Assembly: GCF_025770765.1 (NCBI RefSeq)
Contig: NZ_JANZKY010000016.1
Span: forward strand, 1-64,000
From: Propionivibrio soli
Lineage (GTDB): Bacteria > Pseudomonadota > Gammaproteobacteria > Burkholderiales > Rhodocyclaceae
Length of the DNA stretch: 64,000 bases
Direction: 5' to 3'
Positions within the stretch are counted from its first letter, which is position 1. Each line of letters begins with the position of its first letter. This document shows, piece by piece, positions 34,180 through 51,132 of the stretch. The position numbers and the translations under genes were made by a program. A model generated the notes under the pieces. The model was not told where the DNA came from. It ran no database searches and saw only the letters and a program-made list of their open reading frames with translations.

Positions 34180-34228
34180 GCCGCTCGCCCTCCCCGGCAA
34201 CCGCTCGCCGCGCTTGACGACCGTTCGC
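34180..34228 (+). promoter_or_regulatory. Triple 20-bp-spaced direct repeat upstream of cstA1 (candidate BtsR-like operator)
   Basis: GCCGCTCGC at 34180, ACCGCTCGC at 34200 and ACCGTTCGC at 34220 are spaced exactly 20 bases start to start, on one face of the helix. The last repeat ends 80 bases before the cstA1 ATG. Direct repeats about two turns apart are how LytTR regulators bind, and the core resembles the ACC(G/A)CT(C/T)A site I recall for E. coli BtsR. The same arrangement recurs at 40252 and 41759. Confidence 0.78.
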
Positions 34229-34308
34229 AAAATAACCGAGGAGCGACTGAAACGAATTCCTCAGACCCGCTATCTGAAGCGGTGCTTCATCACAAGACCG
34301 GAGGAGTC

Positions 34309-36372
34309 ATGAATCTCGTTTCCAAACATCTGATCTGGTGGTTATTAACCGCCGTCGGCGTCTTTTCGCTCGGGACTGTCGCCCTCTCGCGCGGCGAGAC
34401 CATCAACGCGCTGTGGATCGTCACCGCCGCTGTCTCGATCTATCTCGTCGCGTATCGCTATTACAGCCTGTACATCGCCCAGAACGTGATGCAGCTCGAC
34501 CCGACGCGGATGACGCCTGCGCTGCGCCACAACGACGGACTCGACTACGTTCCGACCAACAAACACATTCTCTTCGGCCATCACTTCGCGGCGATCGCCG
34601 GCGCCGGGCCGCTCGTCGGCCCGGTCCTCGCCGCGCAGATGGGCTACCTGCCGGGAACGTTGTGGATCATCGTCGGTGTTGTACTAGCCGGTGCAGTACA
34701 GGACTCCATGGTGCTCTTCGTCTCAACGCGCCGCGACGGCCGCTCGCTTGGCGATCTGATCAAGTCCGAACTCGGCAATGTACCCGGGATCATCGCGTTG
34801 TTCGGCGCTTTCATGATCATGGTGATCATTCTCGCCGTCCTGGCGCTGATCGTCGTCAAGGCGCTCGCCGCCAGCCCCTGGGGAACCTTCACCGTCGCGG
34901 CAACCATCCCGCTCGCCATGTTCATGGGTGTGTATCTGCGCTTCATCCGCCCCGGGCGCGTCGGCGAAATCTCGGTTATCGGCTTCGTGCTGCTGATCGC
35001 CGCCATCATGCTCGGCGGCCAGGTCGCCGAAAGTCCGACGTGGGCACCGGTGTTCACGTTCGATGCGAAAACGCTCACCTGGATGCTGATCGGCTACGGA
35101 TTCATCGCCTCGGTCCTTCCCGTCTGGCTGCTCCTTGCGCCGCGCGACTATCTGTCAACCTTCCTGAAGATCGGCACCATCGTTTGCCTGGCGGTTTCCA
35201 TTGTCTTCGTCGCACCCAGCCTGAGCATGCCGGCCGTCACGCAGTTCGTCGACGGCACCGGCCCCGCGTGGTCGGGCAGCCTGTTCCCGTTCATCTTCAT
35301 CACCATCGCCTGCGGCGCGGTTTCGGGGTTCCACGCATTGATTTCGTCAGGGACGACGCCGAAGCTCATCGACAATGAGAAGAACGTGCGCTACATCGGC
35401 TACGGCGGCATGCTGATGGAGTCGTTCGTTGCCATCATGGCGATGGTCGCCGCGTCGGTGATCGACCCGGGCGTCTATTTCGCGATGAACAGCCCGCCCG
35501 CCGTGATCGGCGCGACCGCCGCGAACGCCGCGCAGGTCATCTCGCAGTGGGGCTTCGTCATCACGCCCGACGTGTTGATCCAGACGGCGAAGGATGTCGG
35601 CGAAACGAGCATCATCTCGCGCGCCGGCGGCGCGCCGACTCTCGCCGTCGGCATGGCGCAAATCTTCTCGCACGTGATTGGCGGCAAAGCGATGATGGCG
35701 TTCTGGTACCACTTCGCCATCCTGTTCGAAGCGCTCTTCATCCTCACCGCGTGCGACGCGGGGACGCGCGCCGGACGCTTCATGTTGCAGGACCTCCTTG
35801 GCACTTTCGTGCCGGCGCTCAAATCCACGCGCTCCTGGCCGGCCAATCTCATTGCCACCGGGCTTTGCGTTGCCGCGTGGGGCTACATCCTTTACCAGGG
35901 CGTCATCGACCCGCTGGGAGGAATTAATAGCCTGTGGCCGCTGTTCGGCATTTCGAACCAGATGCTTGCCGGCGTGGCACTCATGTTATGCACCGTCGTC
36001 CTGTTCAAGATGAAGCGGCAAAAGTACGCCTGGGTAACCATCCTGCCGACCGCCTGGCTCCTCGTCTGCACACTGACGGCCGGTTGGCAGAAGATCTTCC
36101 ACGCCAGTCCGAAGATCGGGTTCCTGGCGCTCGCCGACAAGTTCCAGGCGGCACTCGACAAAGGCGAAGTTCTGGCACCGGCGAAGAGTATCGAGCAGAT
36201 GCGGCAGATCGTCTTCAACAACCAGCTCGACGCCGTACTGACGATGTTCTTCATGTTCGTCGTCGTCAGCATCCTGTTCTACACCATTGCCGCCTGCCTC
36301 AAGGCCTTGCAGGAAGGCGCGCCGACAAGCCGCGAAGTGCCTTACCAGGCAACCCCGGCCGTCGAGGTGTAA
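34309..36372 (+). CDS. cstA: CstA/BtsT-family pyruvate or peptide carrier (first copy)
   Basis: A 687-residue inner-membrane carrier of the CstA family. E. coli members transport pyruvate (BtsT, CstA), and peptides were proposed earlier. About 16-18 helices are visible. Family motifs: NKHILFGHHFAAIAGAGPLVGPVLAA, CGAVSGFHALISSGTTPK, AFWYHFAILFEALFILTACDAGTR and LWPLFGISNQMLAGVAL. The start at 34309 follows GGAGGAG and gives the standard length. It overlaps nothing and is followed 2 bases later by the YjiX-type gene and then a YjiA-type GTPase, the same order as btsT-yjiX-yjiA in E. coli. Regulation by the BtsS/BtsR-like pair at 37.8-40.2 kb is likely. Confidence 0.9.
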   Translation: MNLVSKHLIWWLLTAVGVFSLGTVALSRGETINALWIVTAAVSIYLVAYRYYSLYIAQNVMQLDPTRMTPALRHNDGLDYVPTNKHILFGHHFAAIAGAGPLVGPVLAAQMGYLPGTLWIIVGVVLAGAVQDSMVLFVSTRRDGRSLGDLIKSELGNVPGIIALFGAFMIMVIILAVLALIVVKALAASPWGTFTVAATIPLAMFMGVYLRFIRPGRVGEISVIGFVLLIAAIMLGGQVAESPTWAPVFTFDAKTLTWMLIGYGFIASVLPVWLLLAPRDYLSTFLKIGTIVCLAVSIVFVAPSLSMPAVTQFVDGTGPAWSGSLFPFIFITIACGAVSGFHALISSGTTPKLIDNEKNVRYIGYGGMLMESFVAIMAMVAASVIDPGVYFAMNSPPAVIGATAANAAQVISQWGFVITPDVLIQTAKDVGETSIISRAGGAPTLAVGMAQIFSHVIGGKAMMAFWYHFAILFEALFILTACDAGTRAGRFMLQDLLGTFVPALKSTRSWPANLIATGLCVAAWGYILYQGVIDPLGGINSLWPLFGISNQMLAGVALMLCTVVLFKMKRQKYAWVTILPTAWLLVCTLTAGWQKIFHASPKIGFLALADKFQAALDKGEVLAPAKSIEQMRQIVFNNQLDAVLTMFFMFVVVSILFYTIAACLKALQEGAPTSREVPYQATPAVEV

Positions 36373-36374
36373 CG

Positions 36375-36572
36375 GTGTTTAGCGACCTTTCAAAGGTTGG
36401 GAAGTATCTCGGGCAGGCGGCCAGACTCATGGTCGGCTTGCCCGACTACGCCACCTACGTCGCACACATGCGGGCCACGCACCCCGAGCGGCCGATCCTC
36501 AGCGAGGCGGAGTTTTTCCGCGACCGCCAGGAAGCGCGTTATGCCTCCGGTCGCTCCGGTGGTTGTTGTTGA
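36375..36572 (+). CDS. yjiX: YbdD/YjiX family small protein
   Basis: A 65-residue cytosolic protein of the YbdD/YjiX family, found next to cstA/btsT genes and without a firmly known role. Seen: the typical RLMVGLPDYATYVAHM and HPERPILSEAEFFRDRQEARY, ending in GGCC. The start is GTG at 36375, preceded by GAGGTG within the end of cstA. The frame is too short to stand out alone, but the match to the family and the gene order make it real. It probably acts with the carrier. Confidence 0.9.
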   Translation: MFSDLSKVGKYLGQAARLMVGLPDYATYVAHMRATHPERPILSEAEFFRDRQEARYASGRSGGCC

Positions 36573-36606
36573 AGTACCGCCTCACACTCGTCGGATTGAG
36601 AAAGAG

Positions 36607-37671
36607 ATGAACGCCGCACCTTCAGTTGCCCCGATCCCGGTCACCCTTCTTTCCGGTTTTCTCGGGGCCGGCAAGACGACTGTCCTCAACTATCTGCTGG
36701 CCAATCCGATGGGACGACGCTTCGCGATCGTCGAGAACGAGTTCGGCGCCATCAACATCGATAGCGGGCTGATCTCCGATCGACGCGGCGGGGTCGTGGA
36801 GCTGACCAACGGCTGCGTGTGCTGCACGATCAACGCGGACCTGGTACGCGGGCTGCAGGAGCTTGCTCGGCGTCGGACAGCCGGTGAATTGTCGTTCGAC
36901 TGGATCATCATCGAAACGACGGGTTTGGCCGACCCCGGCGCCGTCGCTCAGACATTCTTCGCCGCGCCGGAACTGCGCGATACCTTCCTGCTCGACGGCA
37001 TCGTGGTCGTCGTAGACGCGCTTCATGGCGCCGGGCAACTCGATACACGCCTCGTTGCTCAACGGCAGGCCGGCTTCGCCGACCGGTTGCTGCTCGCGAA
37101 GAGCGACCTCGTCGATGAAGGTGCGGTCGCCACGCTGTCGGAGCGGCTTTCCAGTATCAACCCGCGCGCGCCGATCAGCGTTCTCGATCGTGGCCGCGTC
37201 GACCCGGGCCTGTTGCTCGGAATCGGCGGTTTCAACCTCGACGCGTCATTGCTCGCCGCCGAAGCCGCCGATCGTGAATCCGTACGTTATCGTCCGCTTT
37301 CGATATCCCCATCTGGTGTCTTCCATAAACGTAACAACGCGACCGACGCCATCCGGGCCTTCGTCGTGGAGATGGGCGAAATCGATCTCAGCCAGATGAG
37401 CGACGCCATGCAGTCGATGATCGACGAGTTCGGCGACAAATTGCTGCGCTACAAGGGCATCCTCGCCGTCGGCGGAGAAGATCGCCGCCTCGTCTTCCAG
37501 GGCGTACAGCGCGTCGCCGGTTTCGACTTCGACGCACTGTGGGCCCCCGACGAGCCGCGCGTCTCACGCCTGGTGGTGATTGGCGAAAACCTCCCCGAGG
37601 CATCGCTGCGGCAGCGTTTGCTCGCCTGCGCTATCTCCCCACGGAATGAAACCGCCCCCGCCTGCGGCTAA
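36607..37671 (+). CDS. yjiA: COG0523 (CobW/YjiA) G3E GTPase
   Basis: A 354-residue metal-associated P-loop GTPase. Walker A GFLGAGKTT, metal motif GCVCCTINADL (CxCC), Walker B region IIIETTGLADPG, KSDLVDE specificity motif, and a C-terminal CobW domain ending with RLVFQGVQRVAGF. These proteins bind zinc or other metals and are thought to be metallochaperones; YjiA itself accompanies btsT-yjiX in E. coli. The start is ambiguous: ATG at 36607 begins just before the P-loop, but an ATG at 36541 has a good AGGA site and would add 22 residues of low-complexity Val/Pro sequence while overlapping yjiX. Confidence 0.88.
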   Translation: MNAAPSVAPIPVTLLSGFLGAGKTTVLNYLLANPMGRRFAIVENEFGAINIDSGLISDRRGGVVELTNGCVCCTINADLVRGLQELARRRTAGELSFDWIIIETTGLADPGAVAQTFFAAPELRDTFLLDGIVVVVDALHGAGQLDTRLVAQRQAGFADRLLLAKSDLVDEGAVATLSERLSSINPRAPISVLDRGRVDPGLLLGIGGFNLDASLLAAEAADRESVRYRPLSISPSGVFHKRNNATDAIRAFVVEMGEIDLSQMSDAMQSMIDEFGDKLLRYKGILAVGGEDRRLVFQGVQRVAGFDFDALWAPDEPRVSRLVVIGENLPEASLRQRLLACAISPRNETAPACG

Positions 37672-37826
37672 CTGTGGGTAGCCGCGGGCAGCAACATCCA
37701 CCCGAGCCAACGTCTGAGGGCTGAAACCGTCGCGCCGCCCAAGTTGGCGGCATCAGGCCGGACGACCACCCTTTTTCGCGCAGACTCGTACAATCTCCGT
37801 TAGTCGTTTTCCGGACCCGCTACATC

Positions 37827-39533
37827 ATGCTCGAAGAAATCAACCACTTGGCGTTAATCGGCAGCCTGGTGCAGCAGATGTGCGTCTACCTCGTCGTTGC
37901 CTATCTGCTGAGCAAGACGCCGCTGTTCGCGCCTTTGATGCAGGTCACCGTGCGCCTGCCCGACAAGCTCGTCTGCTACCTCGTCTTCTCCGGTTTCTGC
38001 ATCATGGGCACCTACCTCGGTTTTCAGATCGAGGACGCAATCGCCAATACCCGCGCCATCGGGGCCGTACTCGGGGGCATTCTCGGCGGACCGGTTGTCG
38101 GCCTCGCAGTCGGACTCACCGGCGGCATCCACCGTTATTCGATGGGTGGTTTCACCGCCTCGGCGTGCGCCGTGTCGACCACCGTGGAGGGACTCATCGG
38201 TGGCCTGTTTCACTTTTACCTGCTGCGCCGCCATCGTGCCGACCGCTTGCTGAGTCCATTGTTCGCGCTCGGCGCCACCATGCTCGCCGAAATGACGCAA
38301 ATGCTCATCATCCTCGCCATGGCGCGGCCATTCGACCACGCGGCGCGGCTTGTCGCACACATCGCGCTGCCGATGATCGTGGCCAACTCCATCGGGGCCG
38401 GTTTGTTCATGCGCCTTATCCTCGACCGGCGCGAGACGCTCGAAAAATACTCGATCGCCTTCTCGGCGAAGGCCTTGCGCATCGCCGAACGCTCGGTCGG
38501 CGTATTGATGCAGGGTTTCAACGTCGACAATTGCACGCGCCTCGCCAAGATCATCCGCGAGGAAACCGGCGTCGGCGCGGTGGCCATCACCGATTGCGAG
38601 AAGCTGCTTGGCTTCGTCGGCACCGGCGCCGACCACCATATTCCCGGCACCCCTATCTCGTCGCCGCACACCTTCTACGCCATCAAGAACAACGAGGTCG
38701 TCTATGCCGACGGCGTCGACATCGTTTATTCGTGCGCGGTTTCGAAGGACTGCAAGCTCGGCTCCTGCCTGGTCATCCCGCTGCGCGGCGAGGAGAACCG
38801 CGTCATCGGAACGATCAAACTCTACGAACCGAAGACCAAGTTTTTCTCGTCGCTCAACCGAACGTTGGGGGAAGGTATTGCCCGCCTGCTCTCCAACCAG
38901 GTCCTGGCTGGCAAGATCGAGGAACAGAAGCGCTTGCTGGCGCAATCGGAAATCAAGTTGCTGCAGGCGCAGATCAATCCGCATTTTCTGTTCAACGCGC
39001 TCAATACACTGGCGGCCGTCATCCGACGTGACCCGGAGGCCGCACGCCAGCTCGTCCTCTACCTCTCGACCTTCTTCCGCAAGAGCCTGAAGCGCCTCGG
39101 CAACGAGGCATCGCTTGAAGATGAAATCGAGCACGTCAACGCTTATCTTCAGATCGAACTGGCACGGTTCGCCGACCGGCTCGAAGTGGTGATGGCCATC
39201 CCGGACGAGTTCATGCACTTGCGACTGCCCGCTTTTTCGTTGCAGCCGATCGTCGAGAACGCCATAAAATACGGCATCTCGCAAATGATCGAGCCCGGGC
39301 GCATCACGATCAGCGCTCAACGCACTGACGGCGTGCTCTCGATCTTCGTGGAAGATTCCGCGGGCCTTTACCAGCCCGCGGCCGAAAGGAACGGACTGGG
39401 TATGAGCCTCGTGGATCGGCGCATCAAGATTCGCTACGGCGCCGCCTACGGCATCGACGTGGCGTGCGAGCCGGAAACCTACACGCGCGTCGCCATCCGC
39501 GTCCCGGTCGAAGAAGAACTTGTGCCATGCTGA
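37827..39533 (+). CDS. btsS: LytS-type sensor histidine kinase, BtsS (YehU)-like
   Basis: A 568-residue membrane kinase. Residues 1-200 form the 5TM-5TMR LYT sensor region (several helices, with the typical GGILGGPVVGLAVGLTGGIHRYSMGG loop in part). Next comes a GAF-like domain (about 220-365), then the LytS kinase core: phospho-acceptor His386 in INPHFLFNALNTL, N-box QPIVENAIKYG and a G-box ending GLGMSLVDRRIKIRYG. BtsS of E. coli senses extracellular pyruvate and, with BtsR, induces btsT. Length, domain order and neighbouring cstA-yjiX-yjiA make the same role likely. It overlaps the regulator gene by 7 bases. Confidence 0.86.
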   Translation: MLEEINHLALIGSLVQQMCVYLVVAYLLSKTPLFAPLMQVTVRLPDKLVCYLVFSGFCIMGTYLGFQIEDAIANTRAIGAVLGGILGGPVVGLAVGLTGGIHRYSMGGFTASACAVSTTVEGLIGGLFHFYLLRRHRADRLLSPLFALGATMLAEMTQMLIILAMARPFDHAARLVAHIALPMIVANSIGAGLFMRLILDRRETLEKYSIAFSAKALRIAERSVGVLMQGFNVDNCTRLAKIIREETGVGAVAITDCEKLLGFVGTGADHHIPGTPISSPHTFYAIKNNEVVYADGVDIVYSCAVSKDCKLGSCLVIPLRGEENRVIGTIKLYEPKTKFFSSLNRTLGEGIARLLSNQVLAGKIEEQKRLLAQSEIKLLQAQINPHFLFNALNTLAAVIRRDPEAARQLVLYLSTFFRKSLKRLGNEASLEDEIEHVNAYLQIELARFADRLEVVMAIPDEFMHLRLPAFSLQPIVENAIKYGISQMIEPGRITISAQRTDGVLSIFVEDSAGLYQPAAERNGLGMSLVDRRIKIRYGAAYGIDVACEPETYTRVAIRVPVEEELVPC

Positions 39534-40243
39534 CCGCTCTGATTGTCGACGACGAGGCGCCGTCCCGCGAGGAACTCAAAGCGCTGCTCGGCGAGGCGCC
39601 GGACGTCGAAGTCATCGGGGAATGCGCTAACGCCATCGAAGGCCTGTCGGCGATTCATCGGCTGCGGCCCGACGTCGTCTTTCTCGATATCCAGATGCCG
39701 CGCATCAGCGGGCTCGAGATGGTGGGGATGATCGAGCCCTCGGCGCTTCCGCACATCGTTTTCGTCACCGCCTACGATCAGCACGCGCTCAAGGCTTTCG
39801 AGGAGCACGCCGCCGATTACCTCGTCAAACCCGTCGACCCGGAGCGTCTGGCGAAGACGCTCGACTGGCTGCGTTCCGGTGCGCGCCCCTCGACGAAGGC
39901 GTTTCCCGGGGCCGACAGCAGGCTGCAACAGATCCCCTGCATCGGTCGTAACCGCATCTTCCTCGTTGCCCTCGACGAGGTCGAATACGTCTACACGGAT
40001 ATCTGTGGCGTCAACGTCGTTGCCAGCGAACGGCAAGGAGTCACCGAACTCACCCTCAAGCTCCTCCAGGAGCGGACGCCGCTCGTTCGCTGCCACCGTC
40101 AGTACCTCGTCAATCTCGACCGGGTCGCCGAAATCGAACTGCTCGAAAACGGGGCCGCGGAGATCATCACCCAAAGCAGCAAGCGCGTCCCTGTCAGCCG
40201 GCGACACCTCAGAGAACTCAAAGACCGGCTGCTGATCGTCTAG
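39527..40243 (+). CDS. btsR: LytTR response regulator, BtsR (YehT)-like
   Basis: A 238-residue regulator: receiver domain (residues 1-120; acidic DDE at 8-10, phospho-acceptor Asp54 in VFLDIQMP, TAYDQHALKAFEEHAADYLVKP) and C-terminal LytTR DNA-binding domain (from about 140, with FLVALDEVEYVY, RCHRQYLVNLDRV and RVPVSRRHLRELK). LytTR domains read direct repeats placed two helical turns apart, and three such repeat sets lie in this locus (34180, 40252, 41759). The first repeat after the gene starts 9 bases past its stop codon. The kinase gene overlaps its start. Confidence 0.88.
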   Translation: MLTALIVDDEAPSREELKALLGEAPDVEVIGECANAIEGLSAIHRLRPDVVFLDIQMPRISGLEMVGMIEPSALPHIVFVTAYDQHALKAFEEHAADYLVKPVDPERLAKTLDWLRSGARPSTKAFPGADSRLQQIPCIGRNRIFLVALDEVEYVYTDICGVNVVASERQGVTELTLKLLQERTPLVRCHRQYLVNLDRVAEIELLENGAAEIITQSSKRVPVSRRHLRELKDRLLIV

Positions 40244-40251
40244 CCCGAGCT

Positions 40252-40300
40252 GCCGCTCGCCCACCTCCCCAACCGCTCGTTCGCGCTACCGACCGTTGGC
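40252..40300 (+). promoter_or_regulatory. Triple 20-bp-spaced direct repeat upstream of the binding-protein gene (candidate BtsR-like operator)
   Basis: GCCGCTCGC at 40252, ACCGCTCGT at 40272 and ACCGTTGGC at 40292, again exactly 20 bases apart. The set begins 9 bases past the btsR stop and ends 130 bases before the ATG at 40431. Order and spacing mirror the set before cstA1 (G, A, A as first base; the third unit has CCGTT in both), so this is not chance similarity. Confidence 0.78.
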
Positions 40301-40430
40301 CGGAAAACGCGCACCTGGCACTCGCCTTATGCGATCGTTATCCTGCGGCGCGGTCAGCGTGAGAGCCAAGACCGACCCCGGCAGCATGTACCAGGCACCT
40401 GTCGAACAACAATCACTCGGGGAAACGACG

Positions 40431-41720
40431 ATGCAGTTTTCTTGCGGCCACCGCGGGTTAGGCAATCAATTCAGCCATCTATATCGGTCGACAGAGGCTA
40501 CGAGTCCCTACGTCTTCGTACGCCGTTTCGCCGCGCTTCTCGTATTCGCATCTGCGCTCGCGTCCACGGCCTACGCTGCGGACACGATACGCGTCGGAGT
40601 TTCTTGCCCGATGAGCGGTGGATCGTCGGACATGGGTATCAGCCTGCGTAACGGCGTCCAGCTGGCGGCCGACGAGATCAATGGATGGGCAGGCGGCGCA
40701 CTCGGCAAGAAGATCGAACTCGTCATACGCGACGACAAGGCGGACAACGCCATCGGCAAACAAGTGGCGGAGGATCTTGTGCGCGAACAGAAAGTCTCGG
40801 CGACGATCGGCATATGTAATGCTGGCGTCGGCCTCGCCAGCCTGGACGCTTACCAGAACGGCAAGGTGCCGCTGCTGATCGCCGTCTCGGCAGGAACTCC
40901 GTTGGCCGAACGCTTGGCGGCGACGCCCGATTTTTACGTCTTTCGCAACGCCCCGCGCGATGAAATCCAGGCCGAGTTTCTGGTGCGCGAAGCCCTTAAA
41001 CGCGGGTTGCGAAGAATTGCCGTGTTTGCCGACACGTCGGCCTACGGCGAGTCGGGTCTGAGCTACGTCAAAAAAGCGCTTGCCGAACAGAAGCTGGCTC
41101 CGGTTTCCGTGCAACGTTTTCCGATCGGTGTTACGTCGCTGGCCGAGCAGGCGACTGAAGCAAAAGCGTCCGGAGCCGACGCGGTGCTGGCCTGGACCGT
41201 GGGGCCGGAAGCCGCCGTCATCGCGAAAAGCGTAGCGCGACAAAAATGGCCGGTGCAGATCTTCGGTAGCTGGCCGCTATCGTGGCGCAACTTCATCGAC
41301 GGTTCGGGCCCGGCGGCGGAGGGGACGCTGGTCGCCGTGTCGTTCGTTCAGCAGGCCGGTTTTCAAACGCGTAACGCGTTCATCCTCGCCTATCAAAAGA
41401 AGTATGGCACCGGCGTTATCCCGGCCCCGATGGCCGCCGCGCAAGGTTACGATGCGATGATGATCGTCTATCAGGCGATTCTGCAGGCGCGTAGCGACGA
41501 ACCGGTGAAGATCAAAGCCGCGCTCGAGAATCTTGACCGGCCGATTGCCGGCGCGGTCACGACGTACCAGACGCCATTCTCGAAAACCGACCATGACGCA
41601 ATCAGCGAGAACATGCTGGTGCTCGGTATTGTCCGCCAAGGCCAGATCGACTACGCCAACCGGGAAGATGCAATGAAAACGTTCTCGGTGCAGCGAAAAT
41701 CGGTTCGTCCCGCCATGTAG
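40431..41720 (+). CDS. Orphan LivK-type periplasmic binding protein
   Basis: A 429-residue type I periplasmic binding protein of the branched-chain amino-acid family. A long basic leader precedes a signal peptide (FAALLVFASALASTAYA), then DTIRVGVSCPMSGGSSDMGI, ATIGICNAGVGLASL and LLIAVSAGTPLAERLA as in LivJ/K-like proteins. The start follows GGGGAAACG. No ABC permease or ATPase gene is present, so it is an orphan. It lies between btsSR and a second cstA and has the same triple-repeat operator. It may bind an organic acid or amide for uptake or sensing by this locus, which is inferred from context; the ligand is unknown. Confidence 0.82.
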   Translation: MQFSCGHRGLGNQFSHLYRSTEATSPYVFVRRFAALLVFASALASTAYAADTIRVGVSCPMSGGSSDMGISLRNGVQLAADEINGWAGGALGKKIELVIRDDKADNAIGKQVAEDLVREQKVSATIGICNAGVGLASLDAYQNGKVPLLIAVSAGTPLAERLAATPDFYVFRNAPRDEIQAEFLVREALKRGLRRIAVFADTSAYGESGLSYVKKALAEQKLAPVSVQRFPIGVTSLAEQATEAKASGADAVLAWTVGPEAAVIAKSVARQKWPVQIFGSWPLSWRNFIDGSGPAAEGTLVAVSFVQQAGFQTRNAFILAYQKKYGTGVIPAPMAAAQGYDAMMIVYQAILQARSDEPVKIKAALENLDRPIAGAVTTYQTPFSKTDHDAISENMLVLGIVRQGQIDYANREDAMKTFSVQRKSVRPAM

Positions 41721-41758
41721 ACGGCCGCCTACTCGCGCCAGATTCCCGATGCAACCCC

Positions 41759-41807
41759 ACCGCTTACCCCGTTAAGCGGCCGCTTAATCCGGCCACCGAC
41801 CGCTTGC
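41759..41807 (+). promoter_or_regulatory. Triple 20-bp-spaced direct repeat upstream of cstA2 (candidate BtsR-like operator)
   Basis: ACCGCTTAC at 41759, GCCGCTTAA at 41779 and ACCGCTTGC at 41799, exactly 20 bases apart and on the same strand as cstA2. They end 168 bases before its ATG. The middle unit lies within a 16-base palindrome TTAAGCGGCCGCTTAA (41772-41787). Just downstream is a second perfect palindrome, GCCCCTTCACGAAGGGGC (41818-41835), which may be an additional operator. Confidence 0.76.
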
Positions 41808-41975
41808 AGGATTCCAAGCCCCTTCACGAAGGGGCGGCGTTAGATTGGCATAGCGGACTCCCAGGCGAGCAGCCGGAAATCCGTCGAGACCGGGGGCACG
41901 AAACAAGAAGAAGCGCGGCGAACCAGGGGGCTTCGCCAGAGAATCCGGATTCAAAACCAACCTAAGGGGAAGTTG

Positions 41976-50343: not shown

Positions 50344-51132
50344 ATGTCATCGATCCGTGGGCTATTGGTTGCCTGCCTGTGTGCGTTGCCGTTCGTGGCT
50401 ACCAAAGGCGTGGCCGCCGAAGTGGTCGTCATGAGTTCGGGTGGCTTTTACTCGGCCATGGAAGAACTCGGGCCGGCCTTCGAGAAGGCGACGGGACACA
50501 AGATCGTGCTCATCTCCGGTTCGTCTATGGGCTCGTCGCCGACGGCAATCCCGGCTCGTATCCAGCGCGGCGAAGCAGCCGATCTGCTGATGATGGCCGG
50601 CACCGAACTTGACAAGCTGATCGAGCAAGGTTTCGCCATTCCAGGCAGCCGCGTCGATCTCGTGCATTCGAAGATCGGCATGGTGGTGAGAGCCGGGCAG
50701 CCGAAGCCCGACATCGGTACCAAGGAAGCTTTTGAGAAGGTGCTCCTCGATGCCAAATCGATCGGCTATTCCGCAAGTGCGAGCGGCGTCTACCTCTCGC
50801 AAGAGGTCTTCCCCAAGATCGGCGCGGAAGGCCGGATCATGAGCAAGGCCAAGGAGATCGTGAAAGATCGTGTCGCCACCTGGGTGGCACGCGGAGACCT
50901 CGAACTCGGATTCCAACAGGTGAGCGAACTGCTGCCGATCCCGGGAGTCGATTTCGTCGGCGCAATACCTGAGCCGTATCAGAAGGTGACGGTCTTTTCG
51001 GTCGGTGCGGCCAAGACGTCGAAGGAACCAACCGCGGCGCAGGAACTGGTCAGGTTCCTGATATCGCCGGTCGCCTATCCGATCATCGAAAAGCAGGGCC
51101 TCGAACCTGCGGCTCTCGCCACCAAGAAATAA
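50344..51132 (+). CDS. ModA-like periplasmic substrate-binding protein
   Basis: A 262-residue type II binding protein with a signal peptide (LLVACLCALPFVATKGVAA). It resembles molybdate-binding ModA: VVVMSSGGFYSAMEELGPAFEKATG, SGSSMGSSPTAIPARIQRGEAADLLMMAG and later SASASGVYLSQEVF. ModB/ModC are absent. Similar orphan proteins are found in carboxylate-utilisation loci, and a tricarboxylate or related oxyanion is possible; the ligand cannot be inferred from sequence. The start has GTAGGAGGAAG upstream. Confidence 0.8.
   Translation: MSSIRGLLVACLCALPFVATKGVAAEVVVMSSGGFYSAMEELGPAFEKATGHKIVLISGSSMGSSPTAIPARIQRGEAADLLMMAGTELDKLIEQGFAIPGSRVDLVHSKIGMVVRAGQPKPDIGTKEAFEKVLLDAKSIGYSASASGVYLSQEVFPKIGAEGRIMSKAKEIVKDRVATWVARGDLELGFQQVSELLPIPGVDFVGAIPEPYQKVTVFSVGAAKTSKEPTAAQELVRFLISPVAYPIIEKQGLEPAALATKK

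Follow-up and report, generated by a model that had tools for sequence, protein, structure and literature searches.

Three-unit direct-repeat arrays as probable operators of the BtsS/BtsR pyruvate system in Propionivibrio soli and other proteobacteria

The first 64,000 nucleotides of contig NZ_JANZKY010000016.1 of Propionivibrio soli (hereafter the window) carry three arrays of direct repeats, each made up of three 9-base units, upstream of two genes for CstA-type carriers (cstA1 and cstA2) and of an orphan gene for a periplasmic binding protein. These triplets are most probably (about 85%) operators of the BtsS/BtsR pyruvate two-component system that is encoded between them, and binding of BtsR to all three is predicted. 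Evidence in favor of this reading includes the following: the regulator passes the NCBIfam model for BtsR (NF008677), the kinase keeps the residues with which BtsS senses pyruvate, the arrays track BtsR over genomes, and the btsT promoter of E. coli carries a triplet as well.

Repeat arrays in the window

Inspection of the window sequence located all nine RCCGYTYRC units on the forward strand (Table 1), where a previous reading of this DNA, made from the sequence only, had placed them. The arrays starting at 34180, 40252 and 41759 depart from its consensus by 0, 2 and 1 mismatches in 27 positions, and its spacing of exactly 20 base pairs (bp), about two helical turns, holds for the three arrays of the window, whose units run head to tail. 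Triplets with this spacing and at most two mismatches occur three times in the window, always on the forward strand; Markov resampling of the window, 100 times at first order and 100 times at third order, gave none. When spacings of 9-60 were scanned on both strands with up to four mismatches, spacing 20 gave four triplets (the three arrays and one shifted register) and every other spacing at most one. The motif scan of the genome that the sequence-only reading had proposed made the arrays stand out but gave no further targets: at up to three mismatches, the 4.76 Mb hold four forward matches, all at the locus (the three arrays and the shifted register 41779 of the cstA2 array), and no reverse ones, compared with 1+1 for a reversed-pattern control, a uniqueness that is partly circular as RCCGYTYRC was derived from these nine units.

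Pairs of units were also tried as a regulon search and rejected as unspecific (15 pairs with at most one mismatch in the genome, 18 with the reversed control). With a looser 8-base pattern, RCCRCTYR, at a spacing of 20 or 21, the window contains one extra triplet (two mismatches, 50807, reverse strand) within a reading frame; the reverse-strand pair at 50779-50807, likewise inside a reading frame, was taken as chance. Under the same pattern, the register 40231/40252/40272 of the binding-protein array ties with 40252/40272/40292.

Several scenarios may explain such arrays. One is that they are remnants of minisatellite-like tandem repeats without a regulatory role. The exact gapped triplet has 22 matches in 8 of 28 genomes of the genus (reversed control: 5), of which 7 lie at cstA and 15 are tandem repeats, so the pattern by itself is no proof. 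The tandem repeats, found in three genomes (G763 contig C74, G764 contig C26, G774 contigs C136 and C265), have a period of about 19-21 bp, CCGYTYR units and near-identical spacers. In contrast, pairwise comparison of the three window arrays shows no more than 10, 8 and 12 of the 22 spacer bases in common, and the arrays precede BtsR-associated carriers, mostly at a fixed distance to a -10-like hexamer (see below), which makes an origin as tandem repeats scarcely credible.

The gene pair between the triplets, described in the sequence-only reading as BtsS/BtsR-like, is indeed BtsS/BtsR. The regulator scores far above the NF008677 cut-off (Table 1), and the kinase residues R76, R103, C114 and S117 correspond to R72, R99, C110 and S113 of E. 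coli BtsS, all four being kept; in the available part of PMC10653868 these E. coli residues are given as essential for pyruvate sensing. The kinase is predicted to sense pyruvate.

Arrays in genomes with and without BtsR

Before the triplet test, 21 related loci were inspected between their genes; the test then compared RCCRCTYR at spacings of 19-22 with 200 first-order Markov resamplings per target (p < 0.05). The 35 tested targets (the three of the window, E. coli btsT and 31 others) all belong to genomes with a BtsR-type regulator, and 33 of them have a triplet at this level. Among regions upstream of cstA in genomes without a known BtsR, only 1/25 passes (L091, p = 0.04, four mismatches), which is about the chance level; in 18 of these 25 controls the best match of the genome to the BtsR model is below its cut-off. 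Candidate controls were dropped when the stretch had no CstA match (L104, L105) or no start (L121, L130) or when they were repeat copies of counted loci. Three cstA genes added later were judged by mismatches alone. The first (L134 in genome G269) has an array without mismatches and is the sole cstA of a genome whose two BtsR-model matches lie on two other contigs (L084, L085); the second (L138 in G620) has an array with one mismatch, on the same contig as its btsS, adjacent to it and upstream; the third (L135) is discussed with the exceptions.

The btsT promoter of E. coli K-12 reads GCCGCTCAA-20-ACCGCTTAC-21-ACCACTCAG and thus has three units. The window units match them as direct repeats of the type ACC(G/A)CT(C/T)A, which we take to be the consensus of the E. 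coli BtsR site, so the likeness to that site noted in the sequence-only reading is borne out. The array scan of E. coli covered the btsT and btsSR regions, 23 kb in all. Used as a query, the btsT promoter was matched in 5,333 of 5,426 E. coli genomes, and among the matches listed 9 of 20 rows start where the query has the second base of unit 1 (base 58). All nine E. coli sequences read (K-12 and eight strains) retain CCGCTCA, the core of unit 1. Upstream of unit 1 their DNA falls into three kinds, with tsr, a hypothetical protein or a gene for a 4-hydroxyphenylacetate monooxygenase reductase as the neighbor, and the two main types disagree at 5 of the 11 bases that separate unit 1 from unit 2. 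Recombination joints in E. coli would seem to respect the edge of the operator. When the strain loci L165-L171 are set beside L022, the gene upstream of btsT varies by strain and homology starts at the first BtsR unit.

Several points weigh against reading the arrays as BtsR operators. The pattern RCCRCTYR was loosened after the units of the relatives were known. The triplet is absent at the cstA3 genes of L111 and L113, both directly behind cstA2, and at L135 (G634), where the best candidate has five mismatches although BtsR is present, with cstA 54 kb away. For the remaining 7 of the 25 controls, which are of the same genus, BtsR is absent from the fetched stretch, the whole genome not having been searched, and a partly BtsR-like receiver (46% over 115 residues) lies near control locus L087. 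In K-12 a fourth unit-like word, GTCACTTAA, stands 20 bp before unit 1 with one mismatch; it sits in upstream DNA that is missing from E. coli strains of other types. Finally, no -10-like hexamer (TA...T with at least 4/6 matches to TATAAT) was found at its expected place, 41-43 bp from unit 3, in two of the window arrays (cstA1 and binding-protein gene), in the array of L043, at L044 or at btsT of E. coli. With all exceptions counted, the triplet is present at 35/38 BtsR-associated targets (32/35 excluding the window), although the sequences are related and these counts are not independent events. Given these targets, E. coli btsT among them, the triplet looks like a general BtsR operator, and the claim that three units are a new layout of this locus is not supported. 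The arrays precede three different CstA subfamilies, in what we take to be, from the presumed class of each genus, alpha-, beta- and gammaproteobacteria.

Another regulator could also bind the arrays, for instance a second LytTR protein of Propionivibrio soli; its genome (G000) does have a second match to the BtsR model (C35:129710-130438), which at 150 bits is below the cut-off. Yet similar sub-threshold matches occur in genomes with an array-less cstA (e.g. G010, G078 and G116), the arrays track BtsR over genomes and their sequence is that of the BtsR site in E. coli. Control by a regulator other than BtsR therefore seems very unlikely.

BtsR itself has a patchy distribution, with matches at 1e-60 or better in 4/199 family, 4/200 order and 5/369 class genomes sampled (Propionivibrio soli in each). 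Four further class genomes with BtsR-like matches have no CstA. In one genome without CstA (G392), a weak array (L074:2833, two mismatches, spacing 21+20) lies near a BtsR-model match, upstream of an open reading frame starting MITTLRNTMSNLGPGLLYAG; it is possibly another target, or chance. In the loci L023-L044 and L109-L119 the btsSR pair precedes carriers of three CstA subfamilies (cstA1, cstA2 and a shorter cstA3), as if one carrier had been swapped for another while regulator and operator stayed in place.

Array anatomy, promoter register and neighboring genes

The anatomy of the arrays was described on a set of 34: the 33 rows of a background test less the first array of L043, plus L134 and L138, with L135 excluded for having no array. 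The background test omits the two operon-internal cstA3 genes, and its binding-protein row was fitted at 40231/40252/40272. The spacing is 21+20 in 22 arrays, 20+20 in 10, 20+21 in one (E. coli) and 21+21 in one; strict 20-bp spacing is not the rule, and the loss of that spacing in close relatives, named in the sequence-only reading as a refutation, is seen only in so far as 20 often becomes 21. The sites 20-21 bp beyond the two array ends have on average 3.9 and 4.3 mismatches, compared with 4.0 for the background (33 arrays). The flanking sites being on average at background, the arrays have three units as a rule and do not form an open-ended series. The units differ from each other: unit 2 mostly ends in A, and unit 3 mostly ends in GC, often followed by CAGAT.

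In 28/34 arrays a -10-like hexamer is present at 41-43 bp, counted from the first base of unit 3, compared with 13 of 3630 positions in the upstream background; no -35 consensus was seen by eye in the arrays. Among the 30 arrays that have a hexamer, its commonest distance is 82 bp from unit 1 (23 arrays), 61 bp from unit 2 (19) and 41 bp from unit 3 (18). Measured from unit 3, the distance in the ten 20+20 arrays is 42 bp in six, 41 in two and 47 in one (none in one); in the twenty-two 21+20 arrays it is 41 bp in 16, 42 in one and 43 in three (none in two); in the 21+21 array it is 40 bp. This suggests that changes in array length are often compensated behind unit 3, so that unit 1 would be held in register with the promoter, a pointer rather than a proof since relatives share descent.

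These features bear on the possibility that only units 2 and 3 function, unit 1 being decayed or a chance look-alike. Behr 2016 (PMC4847170), in its available part, describes LytTR sites in general as two repeats, and base 9 is least conserved in unit 1 (0.42 bits, versus 0.69 and 1.48 in the other units). The oligonucleotide 'yjiY YehT bs' listed in Table 1 of the same paper includes all three E. coli units. Against a two-unit operator, C2, C3 and T6 of unit 1 are kept in 34/34 arrays, unit 1 has the most constant distance to the hexamer, and in E. coli homology often starts at unit 1, as described above, with its core kept in the strains read. A two-unit operator is thus quite improbable.

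Within the window, cstA2 alone has the hexamer in register (TAGATT), in the common geometry. It may be that only its array serves a working promoter in Propionivibrio soli, those of cstA1 and of the binding-protein gene being copies that lost or never had a core promoter. The position of cstA2 behind btsR, which is the order in several relatives, would fit this, as would the resemblance of the cstA1 and binding-protein arrays, the most alike overall (35/49 bases). Both arrays are nevertheless intact, and their spacers are not specially alike (10/22 bases, versus 12/22 between the binding-protein and cstA2 arrays), so a recent copying from one to the other is not borne out. E. coli btsT is likewise without a hexamer by the same criterion and is activated by BtsR according to the available part of PMC10653868. 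We consider it rather unlikely that cstA2 has the only working promoter; that all three arrays are BtsR operators is preferred.

The order of cstA1 and the yjiX- and yjiA-type genes is that of E. coli btsT-yjiX-yjiA, and cstA1 scores just below the cut-off of the NCBIfam CstA equivalog NF011590 (1182.3 bits, cut-off 1188). In most relatives a carrier gene directly follows btsSR, whereas here the binding-protein gene, with its own array, intervenes before cstA2. Of 28 genomes searched within the genus, not all of them complete, Propionivibrio soli is the only one with a close copy of this gene, the sole other match being 33% identical. Structure and plasmid searches with the binding protein returned distant relatives only (best PDB match 4q6w at 1.7e-28, best plasmid match at 44%) and pointed to no ligand. 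An inverted repeat, CCCCTTCACGAAGGGG, was noticed by eye at 41819-41834, between unit 3 of cstA2 and its -10-like hexamer.

Table 1 Repeat units, -10-like hexamer and genes of the btsSR locus (window positions; aa, amino acids)
Feature	Position	Strand	Remarks
cstA1 operator unit 1, GCCGCTCGC	34180..34188	+	
cstA1 operator unit 2, ACCGCTCGC	34200..34208	+	
cstA1 operator unit 3, ACCGTTCGC	34220..34228	+	without -10-like hexamer in usual register
cstA1, CstA/BtsT-type carrier, 687 aa	34309..36372	+	Pfam CstA 871 bits; 63% to E. coli BtsT
YjiX/YbdD-type small protein, 65 aa	36375..36572	+	Pfam PF04328
CobW/YjiA-type GTPase, 354 aa	36607..37671	+	Pfam cobW; 41% to E. coli YjiA
BtsS-like LytS-type sensor kinase, 568 aa	37827..39533	+	5TM-5TMR_LYT and His_kinase; 62% to E. 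coli BtsS
BtsR response regulator, 238 aa	39527..40243	+	NCBIfam NF008677 BtsR 359.2 bits, cut-off 246; 54% to E. coli BtsR
Binding-protein-gene operator unit 1, GCCGCTCGC	40252..40260	+	
Binding-protein-gene operator unit 2, ACCGCTCGT	40272..40280	+	
Binding-protein-gene operator unit 3, ACCGTTGGC	40292..40300	+	
Periplasmic branched-chain-amino-acid-type binding protein, 429 aa	40431..41720	+	Peripla_BP_6; between btsR and cstA2
cstA2 operator unit 1, ACCGCTTAC	41759..41767	+	
cstA2 operator unit 2, GCCGCTTAA	41779..41787	+	
cstA2 operator unit 3, ACCGCTTGC	41799..41807	+	
-10-like hexamer TAGATT (cstA2)	41841..41846	+	42 bp past unit 3 start, 82 bp past unit 1 start
cstA2, second CstA-family carrier, 604 aa	41976..43790	+	Pfam CstA 716 bits

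Expected mechanism and known LytTR systems

By analogy with E. coli, extracellular pyruvate would activate BtsS, and phosphorylated BtsR would then occupy all three units from the same side of the helix. If the hexamer is taken as the -10 element, unit 3 covers about -53 to -45 and would bring BtsR next to RNA polymerase, at a promoter in which no -35 is obvious, while cooperative binding would come from units 2 and 1. The uptake carriers would thereby be switched on, here along with the periplasmic binding protein, and the regulon in Propionivibrio soli would consist of the two carriers and the orphan binding protein. We moderately favor a wider proposal, in which the BtsR operator is a three-unit array across proteobacteria, the E. 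coli btsT promoter has a third site upstream of the usual two whose register is the best kept, BtsR acts as a three-protomer activator and not as one dimer, and the orphan binding protein joins the pyruvate regulon here.

As LytTR regulators are usually modelled on two repeats, a conserved third BtsR unit would change the expected stoichiometry. That unit is already inside the E. coli 'YehT binding site' oligonucleotide, and E. coli strains suited to a test exist. Provided that tandem repeats are filtered out, the array may also help to locate BtsR targets where btsSR and the carrier are distant from each other. The locus itself joins a known system; what would be new, and what specialists may not expect, is the generality of the three-unit BtsR operator. 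No mention of a third BtsR unit was found in literature that was mostly short of full texts and figures and that lacked Kraxenberger 2012, reportedly the original account of the BtsR site of E. coli.

The system closest to the locus is BtsS/BtsR-btsT of E. coli. Both have a BtsR-family regulator, a BtsS-family sensor with the pyruvate residues, a CstA-family target followed by yjiX/yjiA homologues, and three RCCRCTYR units 20-21 bp apart. They differ in that E. coli has the spacing 20+21 and its btsSR far from btsT, whereas the window has three arrays in one locus, serving two carriers and a binding protein. A second pyruvate system of E. coli, YpdB/PyrR-yhjX, likewise relies on a LytTR response regulator and on direct repeats, spaced by 21 bp in the PMC4847170 oligonucleotide, but in the available text of that paper its repeat is GGCATTTCAT and its two sites are bound sequentially ('AB-BA'). 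The window arrays, with three repeats each, depart from the canonical LytTR operator of exactly two. Neither the control of a CstA-type carrier by BtsS/BtsR nor a three-repeat LytTR operator is new, the latter being known from RcoM and CoxC (available part of PMC11347149). There, too, three direct repeats about two turns apart are bound by LytTR domains; the repeat is TTNNNGCN, which differs from the RCCRCTYR of BtsR arrays and is not matched by the RCCGYTYRC units of the window. CoxC also differs in having a membrane MHYT sensor domain, in not being a two-component regulator and in acting as a repressor, and for CoxC all three repeats are reported to be necessary for efficient binding (PMC11347149).

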